Assembly: GCF_024323335.1 (NCBI RefSeq)
Contig: NC_066585.1
Span: 81,195,359 to 81,259,358 of the forward strand
Length of the DNA: 64,000 bases
Reading direction: 5' to 3'
DNA from: Lathyrus oleraceus
Lineage: Eukaryota; Streptophyta; Magnoliopsida; Fabales; Fabaceae
Below, piece by piece: positions 21,964-64,000 of the stretch; the stretch's first letter is position 1; each line of letters begins with the position of its first letter. The translations under genes and the position numbers were made by a program. The notes under the pieces are model-generated. The model did no database searches. It saw nothing but the letters and a program-made list of their open reading frames with translations, and had not been told where the DNA came from.

Positions 21964-22089
21964 TGGGTTTATCCATTCAAACACAAAAATGTAAATAACT
22001 TATACATTCTCTTCTCATCTCTTCAATCATGTTTGCACAAACAAAATTTTCACAAAAACAACAAACCTTCACAAGTATGAAAAGGGCTC

Positions 22090-22138: not shown

Positions 22139-22241
22139 AACCAACCCCCTTACCCAGATCTCTGTTTCTTTTACTAGTTTTTGTTAAAACTATTAGGTTT
22201 TTGTTCGCTTTCTAACCATTCCTTTGGATAAATAGAAGTGC

Positions 22242-22252
22242 GGTGGCGACTC
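22242..22252 (+). other. Primer-site mimic in U5 of Ogre B
   Basis: GGTGGCGACTC, 62 bp before the LTR end; it matches the start of the primer-binding site TGGCGACTCTG. Confidence 0.55.
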
Positions 22253-22314
22253 GACTTGTATGATTTACCTTGGATTTAGTCAATATCTCTAATGTTAATG
22301 AATACCCCGCTACA

Positions 22315-27584: not shown

Positions 27585-27589
27585 GGTAT
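27585..27589. repeat. Target site duplication of Ogre C, left (GGTAT)
   Basis: GGTAT directly precedes the LTR end and recurs at 58519-58523 on the other side. Removal of Ogre C rejoins the Ogre D UTR array. Confidence 0.9.
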
Positions 27590-27644
27590 TGTAGCGGTAA
27601 ATTCATGACCATCAAGCTATGGATAAGCTAAACGTCAATTAAAC

Positions 27645-27657
27645 CAAAGTCGCCACC
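27645..27657 (-). other. Primer-site mimic in U5 of Ogre C 3' LTR
   Basis: Minus strand GGTGGCGACTTTG, 55 bp before the LTR end; the 5' LTR copy at 46162-46174 has the less changed GGTGGCGACTCTG. Confidence 0.55.
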
Positions 27658-27770
27658 GCGCTTTTATTGTTTCCAAGGGAAAAGGGAAAAGTGCGAACAA
27701 AACCCAAAGATAAGTAGTTTTCAAATCAAAACTAATAAAATGACAGAGATTACAGGTAAGGGGGTTGGTT

Positions 27771-27818
27771 ACACAGAGGGAAGGTGTTAGCACCCAAAGT
27801 GTCCTAGGTACTCCTAGG
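27771..27818 (-). other. AGUA-hairpin / long-stem RNA module in Ogre C 3' LTR
   Basis: Minus strand CCTAGG-AGTA-CCTAGG (27818-27803), then at once ACAC (27802-27799) pairing with GTGT (27774-27771) around GGTGCTAACACC and TTCCC. GGTG-CTAA-CACC can form a further inner hairpin. Confidence 0.7.
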
Positions 27819-30800: not shown

Positions 30801-32029
30801 CTTTCATGTTGAACACTTTTTCATTTGAATCTTGGATCATGATGAATTTTGAGGTGGAAGTTGGGAAAATCAAACATGTCAAAAAAAATTCAATGTGTTG
30901 AGCCATATGTTCACTTATTCCACCTTGGCTAACTTTTTATGTGAGCTTCAAATAAGAAACTTTCCTTTATCAAAGTTGTATCTCTCTAAAATTCCTTCAA
31001 AATGGTAACAAATTTGACCTTATTTGGATTTATCATGAATGAGTTATGCATTTTTGAAGTTGAGGAAAATCACTTGTTCAATGGCATTGGTCCAAAATGA
31101 CCTATAATGTATCCTCATATCACATGCATAGAAAAGTTTAATTTGCTCATCCTACAAACCAAAAAGTTTAATTAGACATCTTGAATTTGATTGTGAAACT
31201 TGAATATATTTTATATCATAAAAATTTAGCAAGTTATGATCTTGGGAAGTTGAACTCCAAATTAGGGTTTAGACAAAATGACCTATAATCTTTAACCATA
31301 AAAAATGACTTTCCAAGCAAAACTAGCACTTGACCTCAACATGAAAGTTGTTTGGAATGTCATTTATAGTAACTTTTAGCTTGGAATTATTTTCATATGA
31401 CAAAAATTGTAGGAGATAGGGTCTAGGGACCCCAGTTTTGATCAGATGAATTCATTTGGTCAACCACCATGAACCATCTTGCTAGCTTGATATTCTCTTG
31501 ACTTTTGGGACTCATGAAGGATCGCATATGCATAAGATGATGAAATTTGAAGTATCCCTTGAAATACTTGATCAATTGGTGAAGAAGCTTGTTGAAGAAG
31601 TTACACAAGATACCCAGATGAATTAGGGTTTCCAAGGCAAACCAACTCCAAACTCTTGATGATTTTTTATCAAAACAACATGTAAAGATCATGGGGATTC
31701 ATGTATGATGCTTAGAGCCATACTAAACCAAATCTTGATTTAAATCCTTGTAATGAGGGTCTTAAACCCTAGATGTGAGCTTGATAGATCAAAGGTGAGC
31801 ACATGCCCTACCTACAAAAGAGTTAGTTTATACAAAGACATATTTTTGGTATTTAGGTTAGTAAAGATAATAAAATACAAAGTATGATACAATCAAATGG
31901 TGCTTGGTGATCTCTTCCAATGCAAACCCAATGAATGAGGGGTAAGGAGGATGCCAAGATGTGATCCCAATGACAATGCATATGATGAGATAGCATGAGG
32001 GATCTTAGGGTCAAAATTAGGGTCTTACA

Positions 32030-43737: not shown

Positions 43738-45234
43738 CTAACAACAATGTCAGATGATCGGGCCGTAGGCACGTACTTCCTTCGGATGCGTCGGATCTCG
43801 GACTCAAAAGAAGTCTTCATCTGAGTCTTCTCGAGGACAAGATGATCAACAATCTTCTTCCAAGCAACGGAAGGTTAAGGCATACTAGAGGAAGATGAAA
43901 CCTCTGGCTCTCTCTGTCTCTTCATTACTCGGTCTTCAAGAAGCTCAATAAGTGCATCTTTGTCCTTAGACTCAAGCTGCAACTCCTCATGCTTTCTGCT
44001 CAAAGCATGGAAACGCTCTTCTCACATATCCTTCTCTTGCTTCATCTTGGCAAGTGCGTCATCCAACTCCTCTACATCTTGGTTAGGGAGAGTTAACGGC
44101 TCAACCACAACCATAGACATAGGTATCTCACAAGCATAAGGGCATCCTCAATTCCAAATCTCTCTTCTTGACCCAAAGAGTGTAAGCTTTCAAAGCTACA
44201 CAGTTACGCGGACCAAGCTCGGATCTTCCTTTCCTATGCACATTATGCCAAGCATGCACAATCCTCTGCTTCAAATGTTGTGGATCTTTACCCTCTTGAT
44301 AGAAAAGATCTTCTAACAAAGTGTTATGAGGTTTGTCTCTCAAGGGGAACCCAAGTTGACGACGAGCCAAAGCAGAGTTGTAGTTGATTCCTTCTTGTGT
44401 ACCAATGAGAGGCACATTAGAGAATTCACCACAACTATCAATAATCTCAAGGCTACTCAATGAAGTGTCATACCAAACTATATCATTATTAGTGAGAGAC
44501 ATAAGTCTCTGAGACCACCTTAGACATTGTTTGTTCTCCACAAAAGCAGGTGTCTAAGGCAAGTGTGAAATAAACTACTTGTACAGAAGAGGAACACAAC
44601 ACACAATCGTTCCACCACCTTTAGAATTCCTTAAATGCAAAGAAAAGTACATATCACCCAACAAAGTAGGCACATGATACCCAATCAAGAAAATTTTAAT
44701 GGCGTTAACATCAACAAAACCGTCAATGTTAGGGAATAAGGCTAAACCATAGATGAGAAACACAAAGATAGCTTTAAAAGCATCCACACTACCGGCTTGA
44801 GCAAATACAGTAGCTTCCTTAATGAGGAATTCATAAGTCAGCCCAAACATTCCTCCTTTCTTCACCCAATGAGCCTCTATCTCATACTTCTTCAAGTGAA
44901 GAGCTTCAGCTATGATGTGAGATCTAGGAATCTCCTCCAATCCATTAAAAGGCACTTTGTTAGAAACAGGTATTCCCAAGAGAATGGAATACTCATCTAA
45001 CGTAGGCACAAGCTGATAATCAGGAAAAATGAAGCAATGGTAGAGAGGATCATAAAACTGAAGCAACACACTCAAGAGTTCTTCAACCACATCAGTAGAT
45101 AAAATAGACAAAAGCTTCCCACGACATTGCTTGAAGTCCAAGGGATCTAATACAAAAGATGACAACTTCCTTAAATCTTTCAAGTCAGGACATCTGAAAC
45201 TGTACTTCTTAGTGTTCCTTTGTCCATAATCCAT
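43738..45234 (-). pseudogene. Ogre C ORF1 (plant-mobile-domain-like protein), with stops
   Basis: ATG at 45234 (MDYGQRNTKKYSFRCPDLKD). The region FLQFYDPLYHCFIFPDYQLVP-like (short form LLQFYDPLYHCFIF) and FVDVNAIKIFLIGYHVPTLL match Ogre A ORF1. In-frame TAG after LLYK (44575) and another 7 codons on, where Ogre A has LLYKWFMGYLPS, show loss. A further stop follows 44128; open sequence encoding a charged coiled coil (EERFHALSRKHEELQLESKD) continues to about 43738. It precedes gag as in all Ogre elements. Function unknown. Confidence 0.75.
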
Positions 45235-46078
45235 GGTCTGAAAATATTTGCAAATAAGACCTCAGTTTCTTGAAAAAAAATCGTGTGATGAATGTTATGA
45301 TGCGCATGAATGCATGAATGCAACAATCACAAATAAGAGATCACACACAAGGAAAACAAAGGTCAAGGAATGAATCAAGTCATTGCCAAGATCAATCATC
45401 CATTTTTATGGATTATGGTTTTCACCTTATCAACACCCAAGTTCCATTGATATTGACAAGACTTGATTGGATCAACCAAGAATCAAGGGTTTGTTGTGAG
45501 TCACGAGCATGGAGTCTGGTTAAGAACCACCCCAAAGGAGTGTACTAAGGATAAAACCTATAGATCATGTTCTAAAAAGTCCCTAGAGTCTTAATTCCAT
45601 CTATCGGATATTATAGGTTAGGATGACTGACTCATCAACCCATAATATTCTCAAGAGAAACTCGTCTGAGTGTAGTATCGCGTAACAACTGTTATCAAGT
45701 CTACACTTGGACAGTCTCCGCACTACGTCCTAAATAGGAAAAGAGGGGTTAAATGTTATACGGTCCTCAGCTTCTCGGACCCCAAATCAGAGAAAGTAAT
45801 GCCTAACCACAAATAACTTGTGTGACATCAATAGCTTCAAAAGGGTCTCCACTGAGTAGATGGGTCTCAAGCCAACTTGTTAAGGACTACCTCACACAAG
45901 TCGAACATGACTATACCATCCTCCTATCTTAATTGCACTCAAGTTCGGGTTAGAACTTATCTCACCACTCAGAGATCACCAAGCACCACAAGCAGATAAA
46001 ATCACACAAACAAATATACATACATCAAATATACAATTATATACACATAAAAAAGTAGGCTAAACCCACTAGAGACTA
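45235..46078 (-). other. Ogre C untranslated leader
   Basis: About 840 bp between primer site and ORF1, no gene. It contains an inverted repeat GGTCC / GGACC (45762-45766 and 45777-45781) just before the tract CCCAAATCAGAG shared with the Ogre A leader. Confidence 0.6.
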
Positions 46079-46106: not shown

Positions 46107-49100
46107 TGTAGCGGTAAATTCATGACCATCAAGCTATGGATAAGCTAAACGTCAATTAAACCAGAGTCGCCACCGCATTTTTATTGTTTCCAAGGGAAAA
46201 GGGAAAAGCACGAACAAAACCCAAAGATAAGAAGTTTTCAAATCAAAACTAATAAAATGCATGGGATTACAGGTAAGGGGGTTGGTTACACAGAGGGAAG
46301 GTGTTAGCACCCAAAGTATCTTAGGTACTCCTAGGGAGCCCTTTTTTGTGTGCATATGTGTTTTTATACAAAATGATGTTTGCAACAAATGGAGTGGAGG
46401 GATGAGAAAATAATTCATTAATTATATTTTTGTGTTTGACAAGACCTTCAGACTTGTGCCTACGTACCAACATAAAATGAGGGATCAAAACCTCGTAGTT
46501 CGTGGTAACAATTTCAAAATGAATGCATTGCTTTTAACAAAAGTTTAAGTTTGACAAAGGCATAAAATGCCTAAAAAGGTTTGAATGAGTGTTAGTTCTT
46601 TTTGTCTTTTGAAATTTTAAGTCAAGTATAGTTAGGTTCATTTACAAGTTTAATTAAGAAAAGATTTAAAAAATGTAATGGCATAAGGCCAAAGTTTCTA
46701 ATTTCCAATATGGTCTAAGTTAAAAAAAACACAAGCAACAAAGATTTTAAAAGGAGGGAGAGATTTGAAATTAAAGAAGTGGGGAAGAGATGAAAAGACT
46801 AATCCTAAGCAAAAATTAAAAGTTAAGAGTTGAAAAGATCTGACCAATGGGATGCAATCCAATAGACAAGAATGTTATATAGAAACCCAAATTTCCCTTA
46901 GACTTTAGAATCAAGCAATATCAATACACAAATAGCAGGATGAAGAGCAAAGCATCAAATAAAGATGGCCACATCCAAGCTAAGCAACTCCATAATCTTC
47001 TTCATAATCTCCCATGTATTAGATGACTTCAGAGATAGGCATTAGGTATAGGTTCAAAGTAACAGCTTCAATAAGACCATGTAGCAAATGAACTCAAATG
47101 GATCTTCAATATTTGCTTCAGATAAAGTTTCAATTCACAAGCACTTGGTTTCATGAAAGTTGGCATTGGTCAAGTCCTTTTGCATAGGGAGTGTTGCCTA
47201 ATTCTAAGTCCAATGTCTCAGATCAAATCCAACAGTTCACACAAATTTCTTTTAAGGTTTTTGTTGTTATTATGTACATTAAGGTCAAAAGACCACAAAC
47301 ACAAACAAGTATATACAATCACAAGATTAGGCTCAAATGAGCAAAGTGAAAATGGCATTAAAGTAAACAAGTTAAATGGTATGAATAATGGAAAATGAAT
47401 AAAGACTTAAAATTAAAATGCATAAAAGTAAATGACTTAAAATTAAATGTTTGTTGTTAACTGATTAGAAGTTAGTATTGTTTTTGCTTTTGTTTTGTTT
47501 AAGTCATTCTTTGGATAACACTCAACCCACTATTCACAAGCATGGATCCTTGAACCAAGACATCTTCTAAAGGAAGGAAAAAATGCCAAGTTTCCACACA
47601 ATACCATGAAAGAGGGGAGACTTACAATCTCACTTACTAGAATGTTATGCCTTTTTGTATCACAAATTTAGCGCTATGTTAAGCAATCGTAATTGGACTT
47701 ATGTAGAAGTCACAGCTATTTGAGGTCGGGCAATAGAAATTTTAGTGTTAATGCGTGTTAGAGATATTATATCATGAACCATACTCCTAAAACATACCAC
47801 ACTTAAAAGAATATGAAAAAAGGGTGGACCTAATCTCATCCACACTTATGTTGATTTTGCAATCAACTAGCCTTAGGATTAGAGACATCATAGGTCCATG
47901 AAATGAGTGAGAAGAGAATGGGATTGAGATGAAGAGGGAGAGGAAATGGAATCAACACAAATTGGTCAAAGAAGTAGTTTTATCAAATTAAAATCATTCA
48001 TTCATTTTGGGAGATGAAATGTACATTTCATCAATCCCCTAAATCCAATGATTTTAACTCAACAAAGTCAAATTAACCTTGACCAAGGTCCAACAACACA
48101 AGTCAAACTCAACAAGTCAATACCAAAAGCTCAACACAATTTATTTTGCAATTAAATAATTAAAATCAATTAAAAAATGCATTAAATTAAATTATGGTTG
48201 GTCAAAATCCTAAAACCTTATCAAAACACCAAATAAATGGCCATGAGATTTATCATAGGTCAAACTAGGTCAAAGGATCTTGGAGAATTTTTTTTATTAA
48301 TTTTGGAAACTTAAAACTATTTTTAAACAATTAAAAATATTCACAAAAACAATTAAATCATGAGAAATATTAATAATGATCCAAAAAATAATTTTAATTC
48401 AGAAAATGAAAGAGGAATTTATTTAAATTTTTTTGGTGAAACTCTCATATTTTTGGATCAATATTAAAATTAATATGAATTTTATTAAAAATAAACCACT
48501 TTATCTCCCTAATTAATTGAGGTGGCAGATCAAGTGGTCCTCAGCGCGCATTCCATCATGAACATGAGTCAAAGCGTTGCATGGATGGTATTCAGAACCA
48601 ATGCGCGAGATTAGAACATTTAAAAAAGATCATATGGCTCAGATGAACGTTAGCACACCACCAGAGCCAAAGCTCCGGTCTCCTTCTCCGATGAGCCTCA
48701 CCGGACTGGTTCACTTTCAACCATCACCAAAATAAAAAAGAAGGACATGAATTTAAAGTAAAAATGCTCAGGAGCTCGAATTTGACCTCAATTTCTCCTA
48801 ACTTCAAGTATATTGAAAGATACAAGAAGTTGAAATTTGAGGATCATGATCTGAGGTACTTCGATTTGACCTCAATGCAACTCAATCTTGTTGCCTACAT
48901 TGGTAGGACTTCAAACAACCAAAGATCAAGAAGAATTATGAAGAATTGAGTGAGAATCGAAGAAATGAAAAATTCTGAAAAATACTTTTAATGCAGGTCT
49001 GTATGAACACGGTCTTGCTTCCAATTGCTCTTGATCTTGCTTTGGACAGTTGATGGAATGGAATTAAATCAACAAAAGGCACAAGACTCTTGGATATTTG

Positions 49101-49672
49101 AGTCTCAAAACAGTGGAGATTCAAACTCAATTTCCAAATGGGATTAATTTGGACTTTTTGGAAAGGTTAGATCAAGAGGAACAACTTTCATGTTGAACAT
49201 TTTTTCATTTGAAGCTTGGATCATGATGAATTTTGAGGTGGAAATTGGGAAAATCAAACATGTCAAAAAAAATTCTAAGTGTTTATCCATATGTTCACTT
49301 ATTCCACCCTGGATAACTTTTTATGTGAGCTTCAAATGAGAAAAGTTTCTTCATAAAAGTTGTATCTCTCTCAAAGTCCTTCAAAATGTATCCTCATATC
49401 ACATGCATAGAAAAGTTGAATTTGCTCATCCTATAAACATCAAAGTTGAAGTATACATCTTTAATTTGATTGTTAAACTTGAATATATTTCATCTCATAA
49501 AAATTGAGCAAGTTATGGTCTTGTAAAGTTGACCTCCAAATTAGGGTTTAGACAAAATGACATATAATCTTTCACCATAAAAAATGACTTTCCAAGCAAA
49601 ACTAGCTCTTGACCTCAACATGAAAGTTGTTTGGAATGTCATTTATAGTAACTTTTAGCTTGGAATCATTTT
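46107..49672 (-). repeat. Ogre C 5' LTR, inner part (before element G)
   Basis: Begins (minus-strand end) ACCGCTACA at 46107 and aligns with 27590-31400 of the 3' LTR. It contains the AGUA module (46288-46335; stem CCTAGG/CCTAAG, second helix ATAC/GTGT with a G-U pair) and the primer-site mimic GGTGGCGACTCTG (46162-46174). It is interrupted after the duplicated ATTTT by element G. Confidence 0.92.
49668..49672. repeat. Target site duplication of element G, left (ATTTT)
   Basis: ATTTT recurs at 57877-57881. The 3' LTR of Ogre C has the uninterrupted sequence TTGGAATTATTTTCATATGA at 31385 onward, which confirms the empty site. Confidence 0.9.
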
Positions 49673-50891
49673 TGAAATTCTGGTATTAGATATGAGATGT
49701 CGAATGTAATGTCACGACACTAATATCTGAATTACACTAACAGAAGAAAGATATAGAAAGGTAAAGCAAAAGACACAAGCAATTGTTAACCCAGTTCGGT
49801 GCAACTCACCTACGTTTGGGGGCTACCAAGCCAGGAAGGAAATTCACTAAAATAGAATCAGTTCAAAGACTCTCCGTACACTTCAACAAGTTACAGTCTT
49901 TCTCACTTAATCTCTACCTGTGCAATTTCTACCTAAGCACTCTTAGATATGAGAACCCACCCACTTCCCTACAATCACACCTGTGATCTTAAACAACAAT
50001 CCCTTGAGAAAAGAAAAAACTTTTCAATAACACACTCTTGATTTTACTTCACAACTTCAATCAAGAAGACACACTCTTGATCTTGCTTCACAACTTTGAT
50101 CAAGAAGACACACACTTGATCTTGCTTCACAGATTTGATCAAGTAGACACACACTCTTGCTTAACAGCTTTAGAGTGACAAATTACAACCACAAATCAGT
50201 CCAATTCAATCATCAAAAGATGACTTGAATGGCTTATAAGTCTTACGACTAAACAGACACAAACCCTAGCTCTCTCACTATATTTCGCTCAGTATTGGTT
50301 GTGTGTTAAAACAGGTTTTCTAAGTCCCTTTTTATAGAAGCTTTCAGCTGGGCTTGGACATCTTGAAAATCCTAAATCTATTTTCCAATCAAATCTTTTT
50401 ATAACAGCTGGTTAGATCTCCTTGGAAAATAAGTAAATCAGGTTGTAATCCATGATTGAATGCGCCAGCTAATCAGATCTTCAATCATACATAGATTGCC
50501 ATTAATTGTGCAATCACAAAACACCAGACATTCACATTGAATGTTCTGTGTACAGAATGTCATGACATCGGGTCTGACATCCTGGAAAAATCCTGCATAA
50601 ATCAATAATTCCTTTTATAACTTCCAGCAGGTACAACCATATCAGATGCCATGACCTTGTGTATGACATCTTGAAACAATCCTGCATGAACATCTCTTTC
50701 ATTTAAGCTCCAGCAGGTACATCCCATATCAGATGCCATGACCTTGTGTATGACATTCTGAAACAATCCTGCATGAACATGTTCTTGAACTCCAACAGAT
50801 ACATAGGATATCTTATGTTAAGACATCACACATAACATCTTGTGAACACTCTTTGTTTTACCAAAATTGCTGCCAATATTAAGAATCAACA
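49673..50891 (-). repeat. Element G 3' LTR, 1219 bp
   Basis: Minus strand begins TGTTGATTCTTAATATTGGC and ends CCAGAATTTCA. It contains 3.5 tandem units of 41 bp (50029-50170; ACACTCTTGATCTTGCTTCA type) and three units of about 90 bp (50531-50800; ATGCCATGACCTTGTGTATG type). Confidence 0.93.
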
Positions 50892-50905
50892 AACTCCCCA
50901 TTTGG
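50892..50905 (-). promoter_or_regulatory. Element G polypurine tract
   Basis: Minus strand CAAATGGGGAGTT next to the 3' LTR start TGTTGATTC. Confidence 0.7.
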
Positions 50906-51853
50906 CAAATTTTGGCTAAAACATATATCTGTCCTTTTTGTTCACAAGGTAAACTATCAGCAGTTAAACAACATAGTAGTAGTTTAAACAGCAGCAGAAG
51001 CAACACAATTACTAGCTAGTTACTAGTAATACACACATGCACAAAGGTACTTCTCCTCCCCCTAAATTTGTGCAACAAAAACAGAATTACTAGTTATGGA
51101 TGCAACTAGTAAGACACAGAAATGCACAAGGGTACTCCTTCTCCCCCTAAATCTGTGCACACATCAAACATCTTTCATGAATATCACAGCTACTGTAACC
51201 ACAACACCTGTACCAGCCAGAATGTCATTCAGACATCTGCTTCAACATCAACACCTGTGCACCATATCAGACATCCTCTTTGACATCTGTAAACAGAACA
51301 ACATTCTGTTTTAACACCTGTGCACTTCCTTCAATAATAGTTGTCCTTCAGTTCAGCTACATACAACTCACCACTCCACAACTGCTTCCACATTCCACAT
51401 TAACACTTCTCCCCCTTTTTAGTCAAAATTGACCAAAGGTGACCAATTAGACAAAATAAATGTCAATTAGTCTATCAGAGAATGTCAGGACAGATGTTAT
51501 AACATTAAACATGTTAAAACATAACAGTTAAGCAGTACAAACCATCATTATACACAGCTGTGATAGCTGAGATAATGAACAAATCCAAGGAAGTCATTAA
51601 GAGCCCAAAATATTACAAACAAGCATCAATAAGGGCTGCCACAAATTACACATTTTTCAAAAAAAACAATAAAACTTCAGCATCCATACAGCAACAGCAG
51701 AACAGCTTCCCAAAAAAAACAGTCACAACAGTCTTCACAGCACACCTCACACCATCTTCAGTGTTCAACACACAAAGGGGGGAACCATCAATTAGAGGAA
51801 GAAGTATCACCTTCACCTTCAGAGCCTTCAGAGCTTTCAGAGCTGCCACTGGA
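50906..51853 (-). other. Element G 3' untranslated region
   Basis: No gene. It contains two similar tracts GCACAAATTTAGGGGGAG (about 51055) and TGCACAGATTTAGGGGGAG (about 51143), each a G-rich purine run and possibly an accessory polypurine tract, and two smaller T/A-rich stretches. Confidence 0.6.
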
Positions 51854-53577
51854 TTAAGCATTTGATCTCTCACTTGAAGTATTTGCATCTGAGTCTTTGG
51901 TCTCACCAGCCTTCTCCACCTCTTCCTTCTCTAGGCCATGAATAAGAGCCTCCAAGGCCTCTTTTCTTGCTTTGGCAACCCTAATACCATTCTCCAGTTC
52001 TTTGCAGGTTTCCTTCAACTGATCAATTAAACTCCCTTGAGATGCAGGCTCTTTTCTGGCAGATGTCTTGACAACATCATTGACATGACTTCCCTCAAAC
52101 AGTTTATCATGAATGGATAGTGGGGGCTTTCTTCTGCTTGGAATGTCATTTGCATTGAGTATGCCTGGTTGTTGACTCAAGATGATACCACAAATAATAG
52201 ATGGGAAGGCAATGGGCAGCTTCACAGCATTTGTGTAGGCATGTCTGATAATTTGGTCAAACATAAACTTTCCAAAATCATAGTTAATCCTGGTTCCAAT
52301 TGCATGAATGACTCTTCCAAGACTGATGGAGATGGTAGAGATATGATTAGTAGGCATCCAATTAGCTGAACCAATCCTGTGCAAGATGGCATATTTGACA
52401 GTTAGCTTGCTAGCTGAAAGGTGATTCCTACTAGGCCATTCCTTAACTTGGCCAGCTGTAATGATCCTACAGACCTCATTGTCTGTAGTCTCCAGATCTA
52501 TTCCTCCATCAGTTCGTCTCCCTAGGAACTTTTTGATGATGGTTGGTGAGAATCTCACACACCTACCTCTTACAAAAACTTTGCAAAATTCCCTGCTGCT
52601 TCTTTCAGAAATCTCCTCAGGGATATTTACAACAAATTCTTTCACCAACCCCTGATAGCATTGGGGCAGAGCAACCACAGTCTTTATCAATCCAGCATTC
52701 TTGATTAAATCCATGACTTCCTTTACTTCAACAACCTCTTTTCCCAACTCTCTCTCAACCGCTACCCTCCTCTGAATGACAAACTTCCATTTAGCAGCAC
52801 CGTCTTCTAAGTGAAAAGAGATGTTGTCTAAATGAACAGCTGCAGCTTTTCCTGGACACTTCTTAACAGCCTGCCTTTTTGCAGGGGAGAAGTCTGGAAC
52901 ATCATCTTCGACATCCTCATCAGAGTCAGAACTCTTACTTTCTTTCCTCTTCTTAATCTCAACCTTGCTCCATGATTTGGAGGGTCTTACACCAGCAGTC
53001 TTCTTCCTAGTCTTGGATGCCATCATTTCAGCCACAATTTTTTCTTTCCTGGTCTTCAATTTCCTAGCAGCACTTGGTTTCACATGGTGAACCAAGGTGT
53101 CATCCTCTTCCTATGATCTTTCTTCCTCCAAATCAATATTATCCTCAGCAGTATCAGGAGACATGCTAGCTGGTTTCTTGCTAGGTAAATTTTTTCCAAG
53201 AGAACATAATCCCTCAGCAGCTACTTCCTTTTCTGTCTTAGATGAGTCATCATCTTTCTCAGCTTGGGTTTCCACCTCAGGAGAGGGGTCCCTTCTGGAC
53301 AGAGGGGTAAAAATATCCTTGACTCCATGTTCTTCATTCAGAATCCTAGTAACTAGGTTTCTTATGGTGCGATCAGTAAAGTGCATGTCCTCTTTATCAG
53401 GAGATTTTTCAAGAATGTTACCTTGCTTAGTTCCAGCCATGGAAGAGGGGCCTGGGACGTCACCTGGTATCATGCACAGAGGAGTCACGTCCATCAAATC
53501 TTCATCTAGAAACTCCATGGAGGGAGTTCTTGTATGAAAGGGTTTTGAGCTAGATGATAATGGATGTTGAGACATGT
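51854..53577 (-). pseudogene. Element G env-like ORF with one in-frame stop
   Basis: The N-terminal part (MSQHPLSSSSKPFHTRTPS, from about 53577) is an acidic, Ser/Pro-rich region in frame with the pol remnant. After a single TAG at 53113-53111 the frame stays open to 51854: a basic and acidic linker, then the domain AVERELGKEVVEVKEVMDLI, VNIPEEISERSS, VRGRCVRFSPTIIKKFLG, and a C-terminal coiled coil (IDQLKETCKELENGIRVAKA). From memory this is the family catalogued as putative plant transposon protein (PF20167), the env-like protein of SIRE1-type elements. No signal peptide or membrane anchor is obvious. The stop may be recent, as the rest is open. Confidence 0.8.
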
Positions 53578-54898
53578 TGTTGAACTTTTGAGGAAAATTT
53601 ATTTGCCCTAGCAGAGGTTCTTTGAGTAGTTTGATGAAGATGGAAAGAGTTGTGTTCAGGTAGAGCGTGCAAATGGAATAGATACTATTTCCAATACTAG
53701 GTAATGATTCATTATTAATGTGGCTCTTTCTTTTAATTAGGAAGACAATATTTTTGTTACCTTTTCCACTCCACATTAATTGCCATATTTTCTCAAGAAT
53801 CCAAGTCCCTAATTTCCCCCTTTCATATTCAAGTTGGATATCATCCAAATCCCTTGCAGCCTTGTCAGGTAGTTGCATTTCATGTTGTAGAACTATGAAT
53901 TTGTTTTCCACATATTTTCTAATTGAGTGATGACAGCAAATGATGTACTTGGTCCAGTTGTGCTGAATATGATTTTTGGACATAGTTGCACCATACAGGT
54001 TGTCATAATACAATGTCATGACATCGTGTGTGACATTGTATACAATTATCAGTAGTTTCATCCAACCTAGTTGAGAACTGCTGCTTTCATCTGATATACT
54101 TTCATCATCACCATCATTTTTGTCTTTCACATGTGTAGGATCAGGAGTCTTATCACTCTTCATCTCAATCTTCCCCACGTTGTTCTTGGCACACATAGCC
54201 CCTTGTGGCTCAGTTCCAACAAAGTTCTCTCCAATATCAGACTGCATATAACTAGTCACATGTCCACCTATTTGATCTAACCTCTCAGCCATTTGGGCCA
54301 TCATGACCTTTTCTCCCTTGAGAGTAAGGTTAAGTCTGAGCTTCTGGTGTGACATCCTTGTTTGACATTTCCCACAGGCTTGGCTTTCATTACTCTTGAG
54401 GGTTCTTCTAGCAGCTGTACTTATCTTCATCCCTTCCTTTTTGTCATAGGTACACTTTGAGGAATGATGCAATTTAGAGATCCACATGTAACAATTGTCT
54501 TTGGTCCTGATTCCTTTCATAATCACTTCACTATCTTTGTTAGAAATTAGGCATTCAGTTTTGGTGAAGTTAACATTCAGACCTTGATCACATAGTTGAC
54601 TGATGCTTATTAGATTTGAAGTCAAGCCCTTAACAAGTAGAACCTTGTCAAGTTCAGGAACTCCAGGACAATCAAGCTTGCATATCCCCTTTATTTCACC
54701 CTTTGCTCCATCACCAAAAGTTACATGGCTTATGATATGAGGGTGAAGATCAGTTATCAGGTCTATGTTTCCAGTCATGTGTCTAGAACATCCACTATCA
54801 AGATACCACTCTTCTTTGGCTAAGATTCTAAAGGGAATGTGAGCTATTAGACTTGCAACATTAGTCTTAGGAACCCATTGCTTCTTGTTGATAGGCAT
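53578..54898 (-). pseudogene. Element G protease and collapsed pol remnant
   Basis: Starting at the ATG at 54898 the frame encodes the copia protease (WYLDSGCSRHMTGNIDL, catalytic DSG) and the pre-integrase region (KGLTSNLISISQLCDQGLNV). Then come short shreds: an integrase zinc-finger end (CGKCQTRMSHQKLR), an SDIGENFVGTEPQ linker, and the last part of RNase H (TLYYDNLYGATMSKNHIQHN, TKYIICCHHSIRKYVENK, ERGKLG). The integrase core and the whole RT are missing. Remarkably there is no stop across the fusion, which reads on into the env-like ORF for 595 codons in total. Confidence 0.85.
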
Positions 54899-56591
54899 GT
54901 GCTGTTGATAGTGAGTCTGTTGATGAACAGGGATAGGGTAACCATATAGCTTATAGCAGAAAGGCTTTAGGTGACCAAATTTCCCACAGTAATGGCATCT
55001 CCATCTTTGGTGTTTCCTTTTCTGCTATCTTCTCCTCTGATGTTGTGACATCTCAGGACTGCTCTTACTATTGCTGCATTTAGGTTTGGCTTGAGGTTTG
55101 TAACTAGTGTAACTGATATCAACCTTGGATTTTTTATATCCTATTCCAGATTTGTCTCCTGTGATTAGTCCAGTTTGGAGAATCTTGTCTAAGAAGTCAG
55201 ATCCATTATTTAACATCCTTACATACTTGGTCATCTCTTCTAGTTTTGAGTTCAAAAACAAAGCTTCTGTTTTTAACTTGGAGATGGTTTCCACATGTTC
55301 AGCCTTTTCATTCTCAAGCTGTACTATCTTCTGGCTTTCAACTTGTTGACTTTCATCTAGCTTGACCTTCAGAGCCACTGCTTCTGTTTTTAATTTGGAG
55401 ATGGTTTCCAATTGTTCTACCTTCTCTTTCTCAAGTTGAGTTATCCCCTTCTTCTGGTTTTCGACCTGTTTACACAGCTCTACACTTTTGTGGCACATCT
55501 TTCTGTAGGTAGAGGCCAACTCTTCAAAGGTCATTTCTTCATCACTTGAGTCTCCATCAGAACCCCATTTTCCTGTTAGTGCAGTCACCAGATTTGCAAC
55601 CTCCTTTGTATCACTCTCATCAGACCAAGTGGCAGTAAGACTCATCTTCTGCTTCTTGAGATATGTTCCACATTCAGTTCTAATGTGTCCATACCCATCA
55701 CATTCATAGCACTTTACTTCTTTTCCTTCTTTGGGCTTTTCATCTGACCTTGCTCTTCTTTCATTGATGATGTCAGATGTGATGTTCTTGACATTTGCCT
55801 TGGATCTTACATCCATCTTTTTTAACAATCTGTTGAACTGTCTCCCCAGCATTGTAACTTCATTGGCCAAATCTTCATCAACATCCTGACTATTTTCCTC
55901 TTTTGTGTTTGATATGAAGGCAATGCTTTTGGTTTTCTTCTCAGAACCATCATTTAATCCCATTTCAAAGGTTTGGAGGGAACCAATTAGCTCATCAACC
56001 CTCATGTTGGAAATGTCTTGAGACTCTTCTATGGCAGTCACCTTCATTGCAAATCTCTTAGGGAGTGACCTAAGTATTTTCCTTACCAGTTTTTCATCTG
56101 TCATCTTTTCTCCCAGGGCTCCTGAGGCGTTAGCAATTTCCAGGATACTCATGTGAAATTCATGAATGTTTTCATCTTCTTTCATCCTTAAGTTTTCAAA
56201 CTTGGAGGTGAGCAGCTGAAGTCTAGACATCTTTACCCTAGAGGTTCCTTCATGAGTGGTCTTGAGAATGTCCCAAGCATCTTTGGCCACTTCACAACTG
56301 TTTACCACCCTAAAAATGTTCTTGTCTACCCCCATTGAATATTGCATTCAATGCTTTAGAATTTCCAAGAGCTAGATCATCTTCCTCCTTGGACCATTGT
56401 TCTTCAGGCTTCTTCTCAGTGGTGGCTTCTCCTTCTTTAGTAATGACAGGATGCACCCAGCCTGTTAACACAGCTTTCCAAGCCTTGTTATCAAGAGATT
56501 TTAGAAAGGCTATCATTCGAGGTTTAAAATAGTCATAGTTTGAACCATCCAAGATTGGTGGTCTAGGAACAGATCCTCCATCTCTCTCCAT
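54899..56591 (-). pseudogene. gag: Element G gag with two zinc knuckles
   Basis: ATG at 56591 (MERDGGSVPRPPILDGSNYD), copia Gag core (WDILKTTHEGTSRVKMSRLQ, FENLRMKEDENIHEFHMSIL), first CCHC knuckle CYECDGYGHIRTEC, coiled coil with two repeated segments (ETISKLKTEA), then a second knuckle CHYCGKFGHLKPFC just before the protease. A one-base change in a G run near 56335 shifts the frame, and a TAG at 55027-55025 separates gag from the second knuckle and protease, which are in the same frame. Confidence 0.9.
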
Positions 56592-56644
56592 TGTACTAGA
56601 AAGTATTGTCCCTAGATCTCACCAGAACCAAAGCAGGATGCCTC

Positions 56645-56655
56645 CTCTGATACCA
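56645..56655 (-). promoter_or_regulatory. Element G primer-binding site
   Basis: Minus strand TGGTATCAGAG, the standard copia site complementary to initiator Met-tRNA, two bases from the 5' LTR and 54 bases before the gag ATG. Confidence 0.9.
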
Positions 56656-56657
56656 AT

Positions 56658-57876
56658 TTAAATTCTAGTATCAGATATGAGATGTCGAATGTAATGTCAC
56701 GACACTAATATCTGAATTACACTAACAGAAGAAAGATATAGAAAGGTAAAGCAAAAGACACAAGCAATTGTTAACCCAGTTCGGTGCAACTCACCTACGT
56801 CTGGGGGCTACCAAGCCAGGAAGGAAATTCACTAAAATAGAATCAGTTCAAAGACTCTCCGTACACTTCAACAAGTTACAGTCTTTCTCACCTAATCTCT
56901 ACCTGTGCAATTTCTACCTAAGCACTCTTAGATATGAGAACCCACCCACTTCCCTACAATCACACCTGTGATCTTAAACAACAATCCCTTGAGAAAAGAA
57001 AACACTTTTCAATAACACACTCTTGATTTTACTTCACAGTTTCAATCAAGAAGACACACTCTTGATCTTGCTTCACAGCTTTGATTAAGAAGACACACAC
57101 TTGATCTTGCTTCACAGCTTTGATCAAGTAGACACACACTCTTGCTTAACAGCTTTAGAGTGACAAATTACAACCATAAATCAGTCCAATTCAATCATCA
57201 AAAGATGACTTGAATGGCTTACAAGTCTTACGACTAAACAGACACAAACCCTGGATCTCTCACTATATTTCGCTCAGTATCGGTTGTGTGTTAAAACAGG
57301 TTTTCTAAGTCCCTTTTTATCGAAGCTTTCAGTTGGGCCTAGACATCTTGAAAACCCTAAATCTATTTTCCAATCAAATCTTTTTATAACATCTGGTTAG
57401 ATCTCCTTGGAAAATAAGTAAATCAGGATGTAACCCATGATTGAATGCGCCAGCTAATCAGATCTTCAATCATACATAGATTGCCATTCATTGTGCAATC
57501 ACAAAACACCAAACATTCACACTGAATGTTCTGTGTACAGGATGTCATGACATCGGGTCTGACATCCTGGAAAAATCCTGCATAAATCAATAATTCCTTT
57601 TATAACTTCCAGCAGGTACAACCATATCAGATGCCATGACCTTGTGTATGATATCTTGAAACAATCCTGCATGAACATGTCTTTCATTTAAGCTCCAGCA
57701 GGTACATCCCATATCAGATGCCATGACCTTGTGTATGACATTCTGAAACAATCCTGCATGAACATGTTCTTGAACTCCAGCAGGTACATAGGATATCTTA
57801 TGTTAAGACATCACACATAACATCTTATGAACACTCTTTGTTTTACCAAAATTGCTGCCAATATTAAGAATCAATA
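56658..57876 (-). repeat. Element G 5' LTR, 1219 bp
   Basis: Same length and near identity to 49673-50891, including the 41-bp and 90-bp tandem units. Its terminal dinucleotides have each lost one base of the TG/CA consensus (TA at 57876 side, AA at 56658 side on the minus strand). Confidence 0.93.
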
Positions 57877-57881
57877 ATTTT

Positions 57882-58518
57882 CGTATGACAAAAAGTGTAG
57901 GAGATAGGGTCTAGGGACCCCCAGTTTTGATCAGATGAATTCCTCTGGTCAACCACCATGAACCATCTTGCTAGATTTATATTCTATTGAATTTTAGGAC
58001 TCATGGAGGATCAAATATAAATAATATGATGAAATTTTAAGTATCCCTTGAAATATTTGATCAATTGGTGAAGAAGCTTGTCGAAGAAGTTACACATGAT
58101 ACCCAGATGAATTAGGGTTTCCAAGGCAAACCAACTCTAAACTCTTGATGATTTTTGATCAAAATAACATGTGAAAATCATGGGGATTCATATATGATGC
58201 TTAGATCCATAGTAAACCAAATCTTGATTGAACTCCTTGCACTGAGGGTCTTAAACCCTAGATGTGAGCTTGATAGATCAAAGGTGAGCACATGCCCTAC
58301 CTACAAAAGAGTTAGTTTATACAAAGACATATTTTTGGTATTTTGGTTAGTAAAGATGATAAAATACAAAGTAGGATACAATCAAATGGTGCTTGGTGAT
58401 CTCTCCCAATGCAAACCCAATGAATGAGGGGTAAGGAGGATGCCAAGATGTGATCCCAATGCCAATGCATATGATGAGATAGCATGAGGGATCTTAGGGT
58501 CAAAATTGGGGTCTTACA
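57882..58518 (-). repeat. Ogre C 5' LTR, outer part
   Basis: Continues the 5' LTR after element G and its second ATTTT (57877-57881), aligned with 31395-32029 of the 3' LTR, to the LTR start TGTAAGACCCCAATTTTG at 58518. Followed by the second GGTAT. Confidence 0.92.
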
Positions 58519-58523
58519 GGTAT
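58519..58523. repeat. Target site duplication of Ogre C, right (GGTAT)
   Basis: Pairs with 27585-27589. Confidence 0.9.
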
Positions 58524-60499
58524 CTCCTAGTGAGTCTCGGCAGTAGACTCCCTAGTGAGTTTTCTTTTGAATCTTCCCCAAGGAACCTCGACAGTAATCT
58601 TCCATGTTGGAACTTCTTTAGAGGATTATTCTCGAAGAACATGCAAGCAGTCAGAGTAGTTGACCACTTCTCTCCCCAGTGATTTCACCTTGAATTTTCA
58701 TTCACGAGTAAAGGCATCTCGCCAAACCACATTTCATATCATTTCATGAATGCCAACATTTGCATATCATGATCATTCATACATCATGCATAGAAGCAAA
58801 TTTAAATCATTGCATAACCAAAGATTTCTTCACGCTCATCTTGCATTGACCCAGGTCTTGTTGTTGATTGTTATCCCTTGACCCCAAGTCCAGTAGTTAC
58901 TGATATCATTTGAATTCCAGTTGTCACTGGCACCTTTTGTCAAATCCTATTTGTTGTTGGTAGTCAAATTTTGTTCGCACCAGCGTGTATCCTCTCAAAT
59001 CCAGTTGTAACTTGTACCTGTCTTCAAAGTCCAATTGTCATTGGCACCCAAAGTTCAGTTGTCACTGACACCATTTTCCAAGCCTGGTTGTTACCATTTT
59101 TACTTTCGAAGTCCAATTGTTATTGGCACTTTATTTTGAAATCCAATTGTAATTGGTACCCTAAGTCCGGTTGTCACTTGCGTCTTTTGTTCAGTCTGAT
59201 TGTTATCAGCGTATGTCTTTCAAATCCAGTTGTAACTGGTATCTCTTTAAAGTCTGGTTGTCACCAACATCTTTTGTAAAGTCCAGTTGCAAATGGAATC
59301 CTATTTTAAAATCCATTTGTAAATGGTATCTTAAGTCTGGTTGTTATACACATTTGTTTGCAAGTCCAATTGTTATTGGCGTTACTTGTTAAGTCCAGTT
59401 GTAACTGGCACTCATATTTTAAAATCCAGTTGTCACTAGTATCCTTTTAAGTCTAGTTGTATCTCGATTTTTATTTAAAATCCAATTGTAATTGGTATCT
59501 TAAGTCTAATTGTCACCAGCACCCTTGAACTCTAGTTGTAACTAGCACCAATCTGTTTGAAGCTGGTTGTAACCAATGCTTACGGTCTAAGTCCAACTGT
59601 GGTTGGAACCTACAGGGAGTTTTATACCCTGCTTTCCCTGATATTTCCTAGAAAGTCATGTATGACTCTTTATCCTAAGGAATTTCCAAATTTGTGGATG
59701 TCATTCTTGTTAGAAGACTCTGACTTTTGTGTGGATGTTTTCTTGTTAAAAAACTCTCGAATTTTATCTTGGACGATTTCTTTGTGAAGAATCTCCATGT
59801 TGTTTTTCTATACGGAGGAATTTCTTGTAAGAAAACTCCTGGATTTGTCCTAACTTGAATTCTTTGTCTTGAATCCCCAAAGTCTTTGTTTGGATGTTTT
59901 TCTTGTCGGAAAACTCCCGCATGTTGCTTTGAGTGATTTTCTTTATAAAGAATCTCCATGTTTCTTTATGTGGATTCTTTTCTTGTGAGAGAGCTCAGAG
60001 TTTTGTCTTATTTGTATATTCCCTATTAGGGATTGCCTTGTTTTTTGATTGGATGCTTTTCTTGTTGAAAAGCTCTAGATCTTTGTGTAGGATGTATTTC
60101 TTGTCAAAAATCTCCTACTTTTGCAGTTTCTGGTATTCTAAAGTGTTGTTTGTCAAATTTCACTTTGAATACTCCCCAGTGTGTGTCTGATTCTCCAGCA
60201 GGATTGTCATCCCCAACGAGTTTTTTACCCTCATTGTTGTTTCTTGTGGGATACCAGTATCTTGGTGTCCATAATCCCCACATATCTGTTTGTCTTACAT
60301 AACATGTCCTGTTAGGGTTCTCCATATCCCTAGCAGATCAAAAATAAATCCAAAAGAGAGTCTCGCATCCATGCATATCATCTCATATCATGACATTTTC
60401 ATTTTCAGGATCAAAATTTGGGTTTTCTTAGTATTTAATTATATCCCACTATGATCATATGAAGAGTGTTCTGCTTCATATTCTCTTTTTGGAGATACT
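58524..60499 (+). other. Ogre D 3' UTR, right part, with UGUN-tetraloop hairpin array
   Basis: After the last 7-nt-loop hairpin (58532-58550) comes a plain stretch, then from 58891 to about 60115 some 30 short hairpins, mostly 5-bp stems around a TGTN loop. Examples: CCAGT-TGTC-ACTGG (58917), CCAAT-TGTC-ATTGG (59031), TCAGT-TGTC-ACTGA (59055), CTGAT-TGTT-ATCAG (59196), CCATT-TGTA-AATGG (59313), CTAGT-TGTA-ACTAG (59532), CCAAC-TGTG-GTTGG (59593), AGTCA-TGTA-TGACT (59654), TTTCT-TGTA-AGAAA (59821), GCTTTTC-TTGTT-GAAAAGC (60055). Spacing is 25-45 bp. No protein gene is supported. 60170-60499 has no repeat or gene. Confidence 0.75.
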
Positions 60500-60513
60500 T
60501 AAATAGGGTTAAC
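60500..60513 (+). promoter_or_regulatory. Ogre D polypurine tract
   Basis: TAAATAGGGTTAAC before the LTR start, aligned with TAAATAGGGGCATC of Ogre B. Confidence 0.6.
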
Positions 60514-61965
60514 CGTCACACTTCAATTTTGACCCTGAATCACCGATTCAATACATTCATCATAGTTATTGCATCTCTGTATAGCATAACATGCATCCCA
60601 TACCGTATAGTGCCTAGATTATCATTCGAAATAAACTTTCAGATCTACAGACAGACTGGTTGAGTCAATTGTCAAATATGTGTCAAAACAACGGGCGAAA
60701 AATTTCAAAATCAGGCTTGCAGACATTGGTTTTGTTAATTTACGTTCCGCGTAGTTTAACCTGTTGTGCTCGATTTATTTTTTGGCTAATTTTTTGATAA
60801 CATTTTGGTTCATCTGAGTGTTTTAACCGGACATTTTCCATTTCAAAATATGACAAAAACCTGTATGTTTCTGAGAGGTTTATTTTACACTAATCATTGT
60901 GGTGCAATCGTTTTAATTTTGAGCATTTTTGCGCCCGATTTTTATTCATTTTTTATATGTTTATTTTTGTTTTCTAGTCAAAACGATCATGATAATTATT
61001 TAGAATTAATCGAGTTTTTAGTTTGATTTTTGGTTATTTTGTTTATATTAATTTAATTATTGAAGTACATTTAAAAAAATATAGAAAATAATAATATAAA
61101 TGTTTTTTTAATAAAAAAAATATGTACATCTCCCTTTATTCGCTGCCAGCTAGTGCCAAATGGGGATTTTGAAATTCTGATATTTTTCTCTCCACATGGG
61201 ATGCGTGTTGGATTTTGATTACCATTGGTTTTACTCAGAATTTTAAGTTGACCTCATAGTTGTTGACAACTATTGTAAAGGGGGAGAGAACAACAAATTG
61301 TGAGGGAGATACTAGTGGGGATCGAGGAAATTTCAGGATTTTGGGGGTTTTGCTCATGTAAAGAATTTTTTCTGGTTTTTAAATACCAAACCCCTTCTTC
61401 ATCATGGAATTTCTTCCACTCTTCCATCGCCATTACACACACCATCCCCACCGCCCTTCTTCGACAACCTCACCAACGACAACCCTCTTCCATTCCAGTC
61501 TCTAACCCACACACTGTAAACCCCCTGCTACTTCGAATAACAACGTTGTCCGCCTCCTGCAAACCGCCTTCACAACTCCTTATTCCATGCTAACAACTTC
61601 CTCACTCACATGACCAAAACTTAGAACCGTGTTTGCTTGCTTCCAAATACCAACTTGTGTTTTTTTTTCTTTTTCTTTCTTTTGACAACTTTGTGTATGA
61701 TATGGGAATGTTATAAACAAGTCGTTTTGATGAACGCAATGAGGATGTGTTGCTTCAATATCAATTCAATTTGAATTTCTTCTATATGAAGTAAACTATG
61801 ATTGGATATGTGCTTCATGTGTTTTGTTTACTTTATTGGTTTTGCTTGATATGTAAAAAAAATGTCATGTTAGAAATTGGTTTTGATCTATTCATATTGC
61901 TATTGTTGTTGTTCCATTATTTTGTTTTATATATATTATTAGTTGTATTAAGTTTACAAGTAAGA

Positions 61966-62024
61966 GAACCTGGTGGAGTGGTAGATCCTTTGGCTCCCAA
62001 CCACCAGGTCCTCGGTTCAAACAA
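61966..62024 (+). repeat. tRNA-Gly(CCC)-like segment, possible SINE head
   Basis: GGTGGAGTGGTAGA resembles a Pol III A box and D arm. TGG-CTCCCAA-CCA has the layout of an anticodon loop with U33 and anticodon CCC. GGTTCAAAC resembles a B box. The acceptor stem does not close and the T stem is damaged, so this is not a functional tRNA gene; a SINE head inside the LTR is the likeliest reading, but I cannot place its 3' end. Confidence 0.4.
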
Positions 62025-62395
62025 GGTGCGCCCTCATTCTTGCTATTTTATGTTTTTTATCCATCTTATCATGCATTATATAACATATATTTACCATTGT
62101 ATATATAGGACAACAATAAGACTACGGGGGGAATGGTTGAAGATTAACTCCTCCCTCCCCCATGTCTTGGATTTAATCCTTTGTTGCCATTTTTTCGCAT
62201 TATTTTTCCATTATTTTTCACCCTTATAATTTTGCTTTCTTTCACATTTTTTTAACCATCCAAAGGTCGTTTTCTTTCTTATTTTTTGATGCCTACTTCT
62301 TATTTGTGACACTATCCTTATAATTTAATTGTTGTTTTTATTTTTTCCACTTATTTTGCCCCGATTACGGCCGTTGCAAAAGTGCCCTGTGAACG

Positions 62396-63239
62396 TTTTA
62401 AAAATGTGATACTTGTTGGATGTTTTCTAGGTTTCTTTGATTTTTTTCATGGTTAAGCATCGGTCTTTGATCCATGGATTTGACACTTTCTATGTCGTTA
62501 TTCCACCAATTATTTTATCGATATATTTATGGTATTTCGTCGCGTTTTGACTTGTCGCATACGACATTTTCATTGTTGTCAATATGAGCAAACCAACATT
62601 GAGCACATTACTTAGGGTTTTGCTTGCACCTCTCAATTTCATTTTTCCTTGCACATCCTTGCATTATGTGACATTGATTCGCATCCTCGCATCCTGATTT
62701 TAATCCGTGAACGCTTCGATTTTACTTCTTTCGATTTAATTTTTGAATGTTTTGTAAATATACTTTGTGTTGCTATTTTCTTCACATGGCTTACTCTTGG
62801 GCCTTCTTACAATGATACCATCATCTTGCACCCACACTTGTTCATTGTTATTTGTTGATTGTACCTGATTTAATCATTTCATTATCATGAATCCCGATTC
62901 GACAAAATGTATCTCCATTCCAATGACGTGTAATCATTTTACCGCTTTTATTTCTTTGTTTGCTTGTTTGTTTAGTTAGTTACTAACACAAGAATAAAAT
63001 CAATCATTTCTTACAAAAGATTTTAAAAAATGCGATACTTGTTGGATGTTTGCTAGGTTTCTTTGATTTTTTTCATGGTTAAGCATCAGACATTGATCCA
63101 TGGATTCAAAACTTCCATGTCGTTATTCCACCAATTATTTTATCGATATATTGGTGGTATTTCGTCACGTTTTGACTCTTCTCATACGACATTTCCATTG
63201 TTGTCAATATGCACAAATTGACTTTGAGCACATTACTAA
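62396..63239 (+). repeat. Direct repeat of about 218 bp inside the Ogre D LTR
   Basis: Copies at 62396-62613 and 63021-63239 share GATACTTGTTGGATGTTT, CCACCAATTATTTTATCG and CATTGTTGTCAATATG, with 407 bp of single-copy sequence between them. Confidence 0.9.
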
Positions 63240-63463
63240 AGGTATTTTGTTTCAAGACGATACAAAATAATGTTTCGTCCACTTGAGCGTGTGAGTAAGC
63301 TTGCGACGTTGCCCATAGATGTTGATTTGTAAATCCATTCGGTCGTGATGCAAACGTTCATCTCTCCATTTGTTTTGGGTAGTCCAACAATATTTTTGTC
63401 GATTGACACAAAATAGCTTTTATTAAAATCGATCAACAAACAAACATTTTCTACCCGGAACTA

Positions 63464-63510
63464 CGTAATCCTTGAGTTCTCTATTGCCCCTGGAGATACG
63501 TAAGAGCGGG
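63464..63510 (+). promoter_or_regulatory. Conserved LTR core motif in Ogre D
   Basis: GGAACTACGTAATCC, TCTC...GAGA, then TACGTAAGAGC: the same order as in the other Ogre LTRs, more diverged. Confidence 0.45.
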
Positions 63511-63678
63511 ATTTATAAATCTTGTCAGGCCCATCAATAAAAAACTTAGGTTTAGTCCCTTTCATTGCAAAAATCCTAAAATCATTTTCTCTTTCCTATT
63601 CTTTTTTCCCTCTTAATAACTTGAGAAGTCTAATATTTATAAGCTAACACTAATGCACACAACTGACCTAATGGTTCC

Positions 63679-63725
63679 TGTTGAGTACAACAAACGTGAG
63701 GGGTGCTAATACATTTCCCTTGCGT
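63679..63725 (+). other. AGUA-hairpin / long-stem RNA module in Ogre D LTR
   Basis: TGTTG-AGTA-CAACA (63679-63692, perfect) and, two bases on (AA at 63693-63694 shared), ACG (63694-63696) pairing with CGT (63723-63725) around GGGTGCTAATAC...TTCCC. Its stem differs completely from those of A, B, C and S. Confidence 0.65.
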
Positions 63726-63831
63726 AATCGACTCCCAAACCTTGACTTGGTTGCGACGACCAATATCATTATTGTTCTCTTATGGGTTTTATCGATATTT
63801 CCCCTTTCATTTTTAGGAATAAATAAAGTTC

Positions 63832-63844
63832 GGTGGCGGCTCTG
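63832..63844 (+). other. Primer-site mimic in U5 of Ogre D
   Basis: GGTGGCGGCTCTG, 69 bp before the inferred LTR end. Confidence 0.55.
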
Positions 63845-63913
63845 TTTAGTCCATCCTACAAGCGTGCGATTACGCTCTGCTAAGTCGTGTTCTCATTTTG
63901 TTGAAGTGCAACA

Positions 63914-64000
63914 AGAAGCAAGATGACTTCCATGATCTATGGAGTAAGTATAAATGAGAAAATAGGCATTGGTTATGTTCCACCAAATAACTCTATGTTC
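63914..64000 (+). other. Flank right of Ogre D, unassigned
   Basis: 87 bases open in one plus-strand frame that includes INEKIGIGYVPPNNSM. It could be part of another element's polyprotein; too short to assign. Confidence 0.25.

Follow-up and report, generated by a model that had tools for sequence, protein, structure and literature searches.

Covarying arms and a near-constant TGTN loop in a tandem array of small hairpins in the 3' UTR of an Ogre-type retrotransposon of Lathyrus oleraceus

Ogre elements are a main cause of genome size in the pea and vetch tribe. The 3' UTRs of Ogre/Tat elements carry hypervariable tandem repeats and are a source of satellites, as set out in the sections of PMC7004042, PMC6317226 and PMC11963269 that deal with this region. 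A preliminary description of a 64-kb stretch of the Lathyrus oleraceus genome (C7:81195359-81259358; the whole stretch analysed, hereafter the window) placed in such a 3' UTR an array of short hairpins whose arms differ from unit to unit and nevertheless remain complementary, and left open selection for the hairpin or template switching within it. The question raised by this locus is what keeps the arms paired when their sequences change.

The window consists of nested plant LTR retrotransposon DNA, in which three elements are designated Ogre-type, an assumption made from their anatomy (long LTRs, matches to RT, RNase H and integrase, a DUF7745 frame) rather than by comparison with a reference Ogre. 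The features on which the analysis draws are the following.

~17427-22314 (+): 3' LTR of the plus-strand Ogre-type element
27025-27043 (+): lone unit of the array A type, CCAAT TCTT ATTGG, belonging to the host 3' UTR and separated from array A by N2
27265-27562 (+): array C, a 78-bp tandem repeat in which hairpins are not evident, in the host 3' UTR left of N2
27590-58518 (-): N2, a nested Ogre-type element with a copia element inside its right LTR, splitting the host 3' UTR
~27590-32029 and 46107-58518 (-): LTRs of N2, the right one broken by the copia element
58890-59606 (+): array A, 26 units of 5-bp arm, TGTN tetraloop and 5-bp arm
59654-59667 (+): single hairpin AGTCA TGTA TGACT, between arrays A and B
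59697-60114 (+): array B, 11 T-rich units of the GGATGnTTTTCT TGTn AnAAAnCTC type, with weaker and mixed support
60408-60513 (+): end of the host 3' UTR with the polypurine tract, alignable with its counterparts in N2 and the plus-strand element
60514-63920, ends approximate (+): host 3' LTR, its start and end alignable with the LTRs of N2 and of the plus-strand element

The target duplication of N2, GGTAT, is found on both of its flanks (27585-27589 and 58519-58523), and the flanking DNA therefore represents one older element, the host, of which the 3' UTR and 3' LTR lie in the window and pol and the 5' part outside it. The portion of the host 3' UTR to the right of N2 spans 58519 to about 60513. 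The stretch 60408-60565 matches the polypurine tract/LTR boundary in both other Ogre-type elements of the window. Since the polypurine tract and the LTR start, near 60514, align with these two elements, the arrays sit in a 3' UTR in sense orientation; this bears out the location given in the preliminary description, with "Ogre-type" understood as an attribution by anatomy. N2 has LTRs of ~4.4 kb, matches to RT, RNase H and integrase, and a DUF7745 frame (44575-45261) which we take to be ORF1. A Pfam search of its eight frames of at least 150 aa found no gag family and no zinc knuckle. The pol regions of N2 and the plus-strand element are ~80% identical, and as relatives the two count as one independent case, not two.

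Several other features of the window were recorded. An Athila/Tat-like pol piece with a match to ATHILA (PF03078; 22331-26402, minus strand) lies between the plus-strand element and the host 3' UTR, and an inverted repeat (7-2628 and 6166-8804, 78% identical) surrounds a DUF7745 reading frame (3474-4742, minus strand). The copia-type element N1 has a reading frame (51854-53110, minus strand) with a match to Transposase_32 (PF20167). Within the host 3' LTR there are a direct repeat (62396-62621 and 63022-63246, 88%) and a tRNA- or SINE-like stretch (61965-62030) with A-box and B-box like motifs, where ARAGORN called no tRNA.

Array A is a contiguous, gapless series of units of the pattern AART-arm-TGTN-arm, with a loop-to-loop distance of 20-34 nt. 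The loops begin at the following positions, all on the plus strand.

First 13: 58895, 58922, 58952, 58986, 59006, 59036, 59060, 59089, 59118, 59148, 59172, 59201, 59231
Last 13: 59259, 59288, 59318, 59342, 59371, 59400, 59431, 59458, 59487, 59511, 59537, 59568, 59598

Thirteen of the 26 units pair over 5 bp and a further four over exactly 4 bp from the loop. The preliminary description had listed 24 units at 58891-59606, a count that is raised here to 26 at 58890-59606; its figure of 17 paired units holds, and every arm pair that it named is present. The constant TGTN loop which it reported is found in 24 of the 26 units, with A, C or T as the variable base after TGT, and the inverse loop, NACA, in none. 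When the window was scanned for hairpins that share a loop and differ in their perfect arms, excluding arms built from only one or two kinds of base, TGT at 58922-59659 ranked top (7 arm types in 13 hairpins), against a maximum of 3 on the plus strand of 40 shuffled windows. All 25 window matches of a model of array A (E up to 3) fall within the host 3' UTR, all 25 being training units, and the stem-loop set is clustered there rather than dispersed, as judged from matches in the window, outside which the remainder of the host element lies. A search of 58520-60520 against Rfam returned no family. Its one weak match, at 23.8 of 90 bits, is to the model of the mir-2686 precursor; it falls well short of the threshold and covers one array B hairpin (59934-59981).

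Covariation was assessed on 27 units, comprising the 26 of array A and the lone unit at 27025-27043, with identical rows merged and G.U accepted as a pair. Double changes after which the two bases still pair occupy 1, 7, 5, 9 and 2 cells at the five stem positions, so that each position has at least one, as had been claimed at the outset. Paired cells make up 86.7% of the total, compared with 73.5% after shuffling, and there are 24 double-change cells against 7.6 in shuffled units (0/500) and 4-8 when the partner column is slid; compensation thus exceeds that of shuffled repeats, the yardstick named in the preliminary description. When 3' arms were swapped between units, the summed hairpin energy rose from -50.3 kcal/mol with a unit's own arms to -19.6 kcal/mol (0/20000 swaps reached the former). 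A tree-aware null, in which substitutions were scattered over the branches of a tree of the units in 2000 simulations, gave a mean of 3.5 and a maximum of 15 double-change cells versus the 23 observed (0/2000), and with four units removed the comparison stands at 20 versus 2.6. By mutual information over 28 columns, four stem pairs rank 2, 4, 7 and 18 of 378 and the outermost ranks 89, in a run in which the register of one unit was off. Pairwise identity between units is 0.93 for TGT, 0.60 for the arms and 0.50 for the flanks. Double changes preserve the complementarity of a unit's two arms, the loop and a few flanking bases are near constant, and pairing takes place within the units. The covarying pair of rank 1 is an R..Y combination at -7/+9 (58888-59606), outside the 5-bp stem, which reads G..C or A..T in 683 of the 898 units at other places described below; it could lengthen the stem by a sixth pair, leaving a T bulged, or could, through linkage, be the mark of two subfamilies. 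An interpretation of the units as binding sites for a DNA-binding dimer was dismissed by argument, since the two half-sites vary jointly and in many ways.

A search of the 3.795-Gb assembly revealed related arrays in at least 39 further places, with an identity of 67-90% by piece; this is a lower bound, as it derives from the best 40 of 4184 candidates, which scored as 82 pieces and were merged by eye into 39 places plus the window. Units at the 39 places were chosen with a matrix blind to the arms and trained on the window units, and merging of identical rows left 898 distinct units, of which up to ~8% may be chance matches since the matrix found 79 matches in shuffled sequence against 966 in real sequence. 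Among these units 3519 of 4490 stem cells are paired, versus 2671 (sd 26, maximum 2748 in 300 rounds) after arm swaps, and 297 units are perfect versus 108. Double-change cells number 717, compared with 305 (sd 12, maximum 338) in 200 column-shuffled sets and 132-300 with slid partners, and when one random unit was drawn per place its own arms were better than swapped arms in 300/300 draws. By corrected mutual information four stem pairs of the arm-blind set rank 2, 3, 9 and 11 of 378, the outermost falling outside the top 14. A matrix search blind to the loop instead found TGTN in 695 of 913 units, identical rows merged, and an inverted loop in 0/913. In aligned copies the ratio of compensated changes to single breaks climbs with divergence, from 0.06 (one copy pair) through 0.13 and 0.16 to 0.25, versus 0.00-0.04 in the slid-partner control.

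That a few old arm types were simply spread by copying, with no pairing force at work, is very improbable. The 297 perfect units do comprise only 16 arm types, two of which account for 211 of them, as such a history would have it; the tree-aware nulls, the slid controls, the comparison of aligned copies and the hairpin families with other loops all contradict it. The repeats of the host 3' UTR are family-specific and differ between copies, as seen at the 39 places and from the other loops in N2. Relatives were also sought with the 18-mer pattern in IMG/VR and in prokaryote genomes, where 34 and 107 stretches, respectively, were obtained and rejected as chance, because there was one match per row (34/34, and in the 80 listed of the 107) and the loci examined contained no clustered TGT hairpins. 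A comparison of the N2 integrase with viral contigs found no relative.

Array B behaves like array A, though more weakly. The preliminary description had continued the array with T-rich stems to about 60115; the units are present, while their covariation within the window is mixed. Swapping of arms of 9 nt gave values as good as the observed one in 39/20000 trials for the 11 units, and in 4/20000 when two units outside the array were added, compared with 1300/20000 for 7-nt arms. Ten double-change cells were counted against 5.8 expected (10/500, identical rows merged), with no excess of pair types, and seven perfect hairpins against 3.0, the shuffle maximum being 11. Elsewhere 123 distinct anchored units of this type, identical rows merged, occur at 26 other places, a few of them being array A units or chance matches. 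Their mean energy is -2.19, versus -1.25 after swapping (30 swaps, lowest -1.45), and pairing is above independence at pairs 2-5 from the loop, and not at pairs 1 and 6-8.

Hairpins with loops of a different kind are found in the 3' UTRs of N2 and of the plus-strand element.

32546-33381 (-): second family, CAGTAACC-type octaloop, in the N2 3' UTR
32546-32567, 32658-32679, 32715-32736, 32930-32951, 33033-33054, 33137-33158 and 33360-33381 (-): its 22-nt units in N2
33319-33340 (-): an extra match of the octaloop model in N2
16045-16941 (+): second family, octaloop, in the plus-strand Ogre-type element
16045-16066, 16098-16119, 16196-16217, 16241-16262, 16437-16458, 16684-16705 and 16920-16941 (+): its units in that element
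32598-33254 (-): third family, eight CTAACC hexaloop hairpins, in the N2 3' UTR
16160-16177 (+): a ninth CTAACC hairpin, in the plus-strand element

The 14 octaloop units score at least 6.5 bits, with at most 3.1 bits on the plus strand in three other stretches of the window, under a model whose seeds were drawn from those same 14 units. Their stems are paired in 95.7% of cells (identical rows merged), and 11 double-change cells are observed versus 2.4 after shuffling and 1.9 in tree simulations (1/2000). The octaloop model also matched 26069-26090 on the minus strand (15.2 bits), outside any 3' UTR. In the scan for shared loops with different arms the CTAACC hexaloop, in its other-strand reading, comes second after TGT on the plus strand; its nine units (seven distinct) have 2 double changes versus 0.3 (9/500), and pair types are not in excess. 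For the N2 family, the best 40 of 11847 candidates were scored and yielded 40 places, 39 of them besides the window and again a lower bound. In the 40 aligned sequences double changes are at most weakly above the tree null (28 versus 16.4; 65/1000), whereas paired cells exceed it (3/1000). A full alignment of the 3' UTRs of N2 and the plus-strand element (28 compensated and 84 single changes) was set aside on account of 30 positions at which both bases had changed and were unpaired, at 47% divergence.

The alternative that bears most directly on these observations is neutral copying between arms, in which template switching during reverse transcription or replication repairs the two halves of an inverted repeat against each other and the hairpin is functionless. 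A mechanism that makes and corrects stems with Watson-Crick pairing is published (PMC8794818, in the part that concerns hairpin formation), and copying of this kind would produce the lack of G.U preference seen in the TGTN family, where the other copies contain 306 G.T cells (0.45 of expectation) and 316 A.C cells (0.48) and the best-paired copies, the window among them, 66 G.U and 80 A.C. In the N2 family, moreover, conservation of the loops (0.854) does not exceed that of other columns (0.859), with stems at 0.892. Against copying, chance hairpins of like size are barely compensated, with 1 compensated versus 37 single changes in four comparisons of LTR pairs and 2 versus 74 in pol, where 2.5 were expected. 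Inversion of the loop, a by-product of one form of the mechanism, is absent from the 913 units, and the near constancy of TGT beside poorly conserved flanks is left unexplained. Of the two explanations originally proposed both remain, selection being favoured because the loop is conserved and chance hairpins are almost uncompensated, and neutral copying is a serious if less probable contender. Were the arms copied without selection, the arrays would be an exceptionally clear example, from nature, of a retroelement corrected by template switching.

The strand and the nucleic acid in which pairing operates were addressed through wobble pairs and folding. In the N2 family, changes from paired states on inner branches lead to 15 G.U and 8 A.C, an asymmetry that points modestly to sense RNA, whereas terminal branches, where changes are mostly decay after insertion, have 62 G.U and 85 A.C. 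The mismatch cells shared within this family (175 G.U versus 57 A.C) stem from 12 pair positions for G.U and 10 for A.C, and the ratio of 175:57 is therefore inflated by inheritance. As a whole, array A does not fold exceptionally as sense RNA (z -1.25, with 4/20 shuffles as low), while its antisense fold has a z of -4.43 (20 shuffles); the stems are short and weak, and to judge from these folds one unit of array A may pair with another. For the stretch that holds array B, the fold is exceptional on both strands (z -4.15 and -5.43, with 100 shuffles each). The relevant paired form could instead be DNA, either cDNA while single-stranded or a cruciform, to which integrase, reverse transcriptase or a host protein would bind. 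Such a form would agree with wobble pairs free of strand bias in the TGTN family and with antisense hairpins at least as stable as sense ones (-57.6 versus -50.3 kcal/mol for 5-nt arms, RNA parameters); it is improbable in view of the fixed orientation of the loop, never inverted in the 913 units, and of the modest sense G.U excess on the inner branches of the N2 family. Pairing probably acts in RNA, although a pure RNA reading is opposed by the TGTN family being without G.U preference and by the ordinary sense fold of array A.

The explanation preferred here, with a probability of somewhat under one half, is that selection has maintained a repeated stem-loop, which probably acts in the sense RNA and perhaps serves as a docking signal for Gag or ORF1. 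Part of the host 3' UTR is a tandem array of small stem-loops, and their structure would have been preserved by selection while the elements were active, most likely in the sense genomic RNA. The structure may have been kept because a candidate protein reads the loop on its stem, which would leave the stem sequence free and make pairing necessary, and multiple copies would confer avidity for that reader. Gag or ORF1 encoded by the element itself is the most plausible candidate, with packaging, dimerisation or transport of the RNA as its putative role. The loop would be particular to each element family, and tandem duplication, known in such 3' UTRs, would generate and turn over the copies. Covarying stems together with a kept loop supply a testable reason for retention of the region, namely a structural signal. 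A more far-reaching proposal, which is rather unlikely on the present sequence comparisons, is that Ogre 3' UTRs are arrays of stem-loops by which the genomic RNA carries a family-specific address label, with the loop as the word, the stem as its holder and copy number as avidity for Gag or ORF1. If this were true, switching of the loop (TGTN, CAGTAACC, CTAACC) would decide RNA uptake per particle, and satellites derived from 3' UTRs of this kind would be the fossils of hairpin arrays.

As in the Ogre/Tat 3' UTR repeats described in the relevant sections of PMC7004042 and PMC6317226, the arrays lie directly before the polypurine tract and 3' LTR, putatively between these and pol, and are tandem repeats that vary between families; they differ from those descriptions in that the units of array A are stem-loops with covarying arms, and the terms hairpin, palindrom and secondary structure have 0 occurrences in the main text of PMC7004042. 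The minisatellites of the soybean element GmOgre/Gmr9 occupy the same Ogre region as five interleaved repeat families, but nearly 75% of its repeat A copies match their consensus exactly and structure is undiscussed in the pertinent part of PMC3305785. Repeats in this region are known, and covarying stem-loops appear unreported among the literature matches listed for Ogre and LTR retrotransposons, which is not proof of absence, as the founding 2009 paper lies outside that scope. Hairpins made by template switching share compensatory stem changes with the arrays, and 4-nt loops are common among them in the portion of PMC8794818 concerned; here, by contrast, none of 913 loops is inverted and compensation is largely confined to the array hairpins. 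The packaging signals of hepatitis B virus, as presented in the corresponding part of PMC7612645, consist likewise of several stem-loops with a common loop motif (-RGAG-), although there they are dispersed over the genome and have measured effects on assembly, whereas the array in pea is a cluster in the 3' UTR recognised from its sequence. Array A has one trait of such packaging signals: several stem-loops that present a common loop motif on variable, paired stems.
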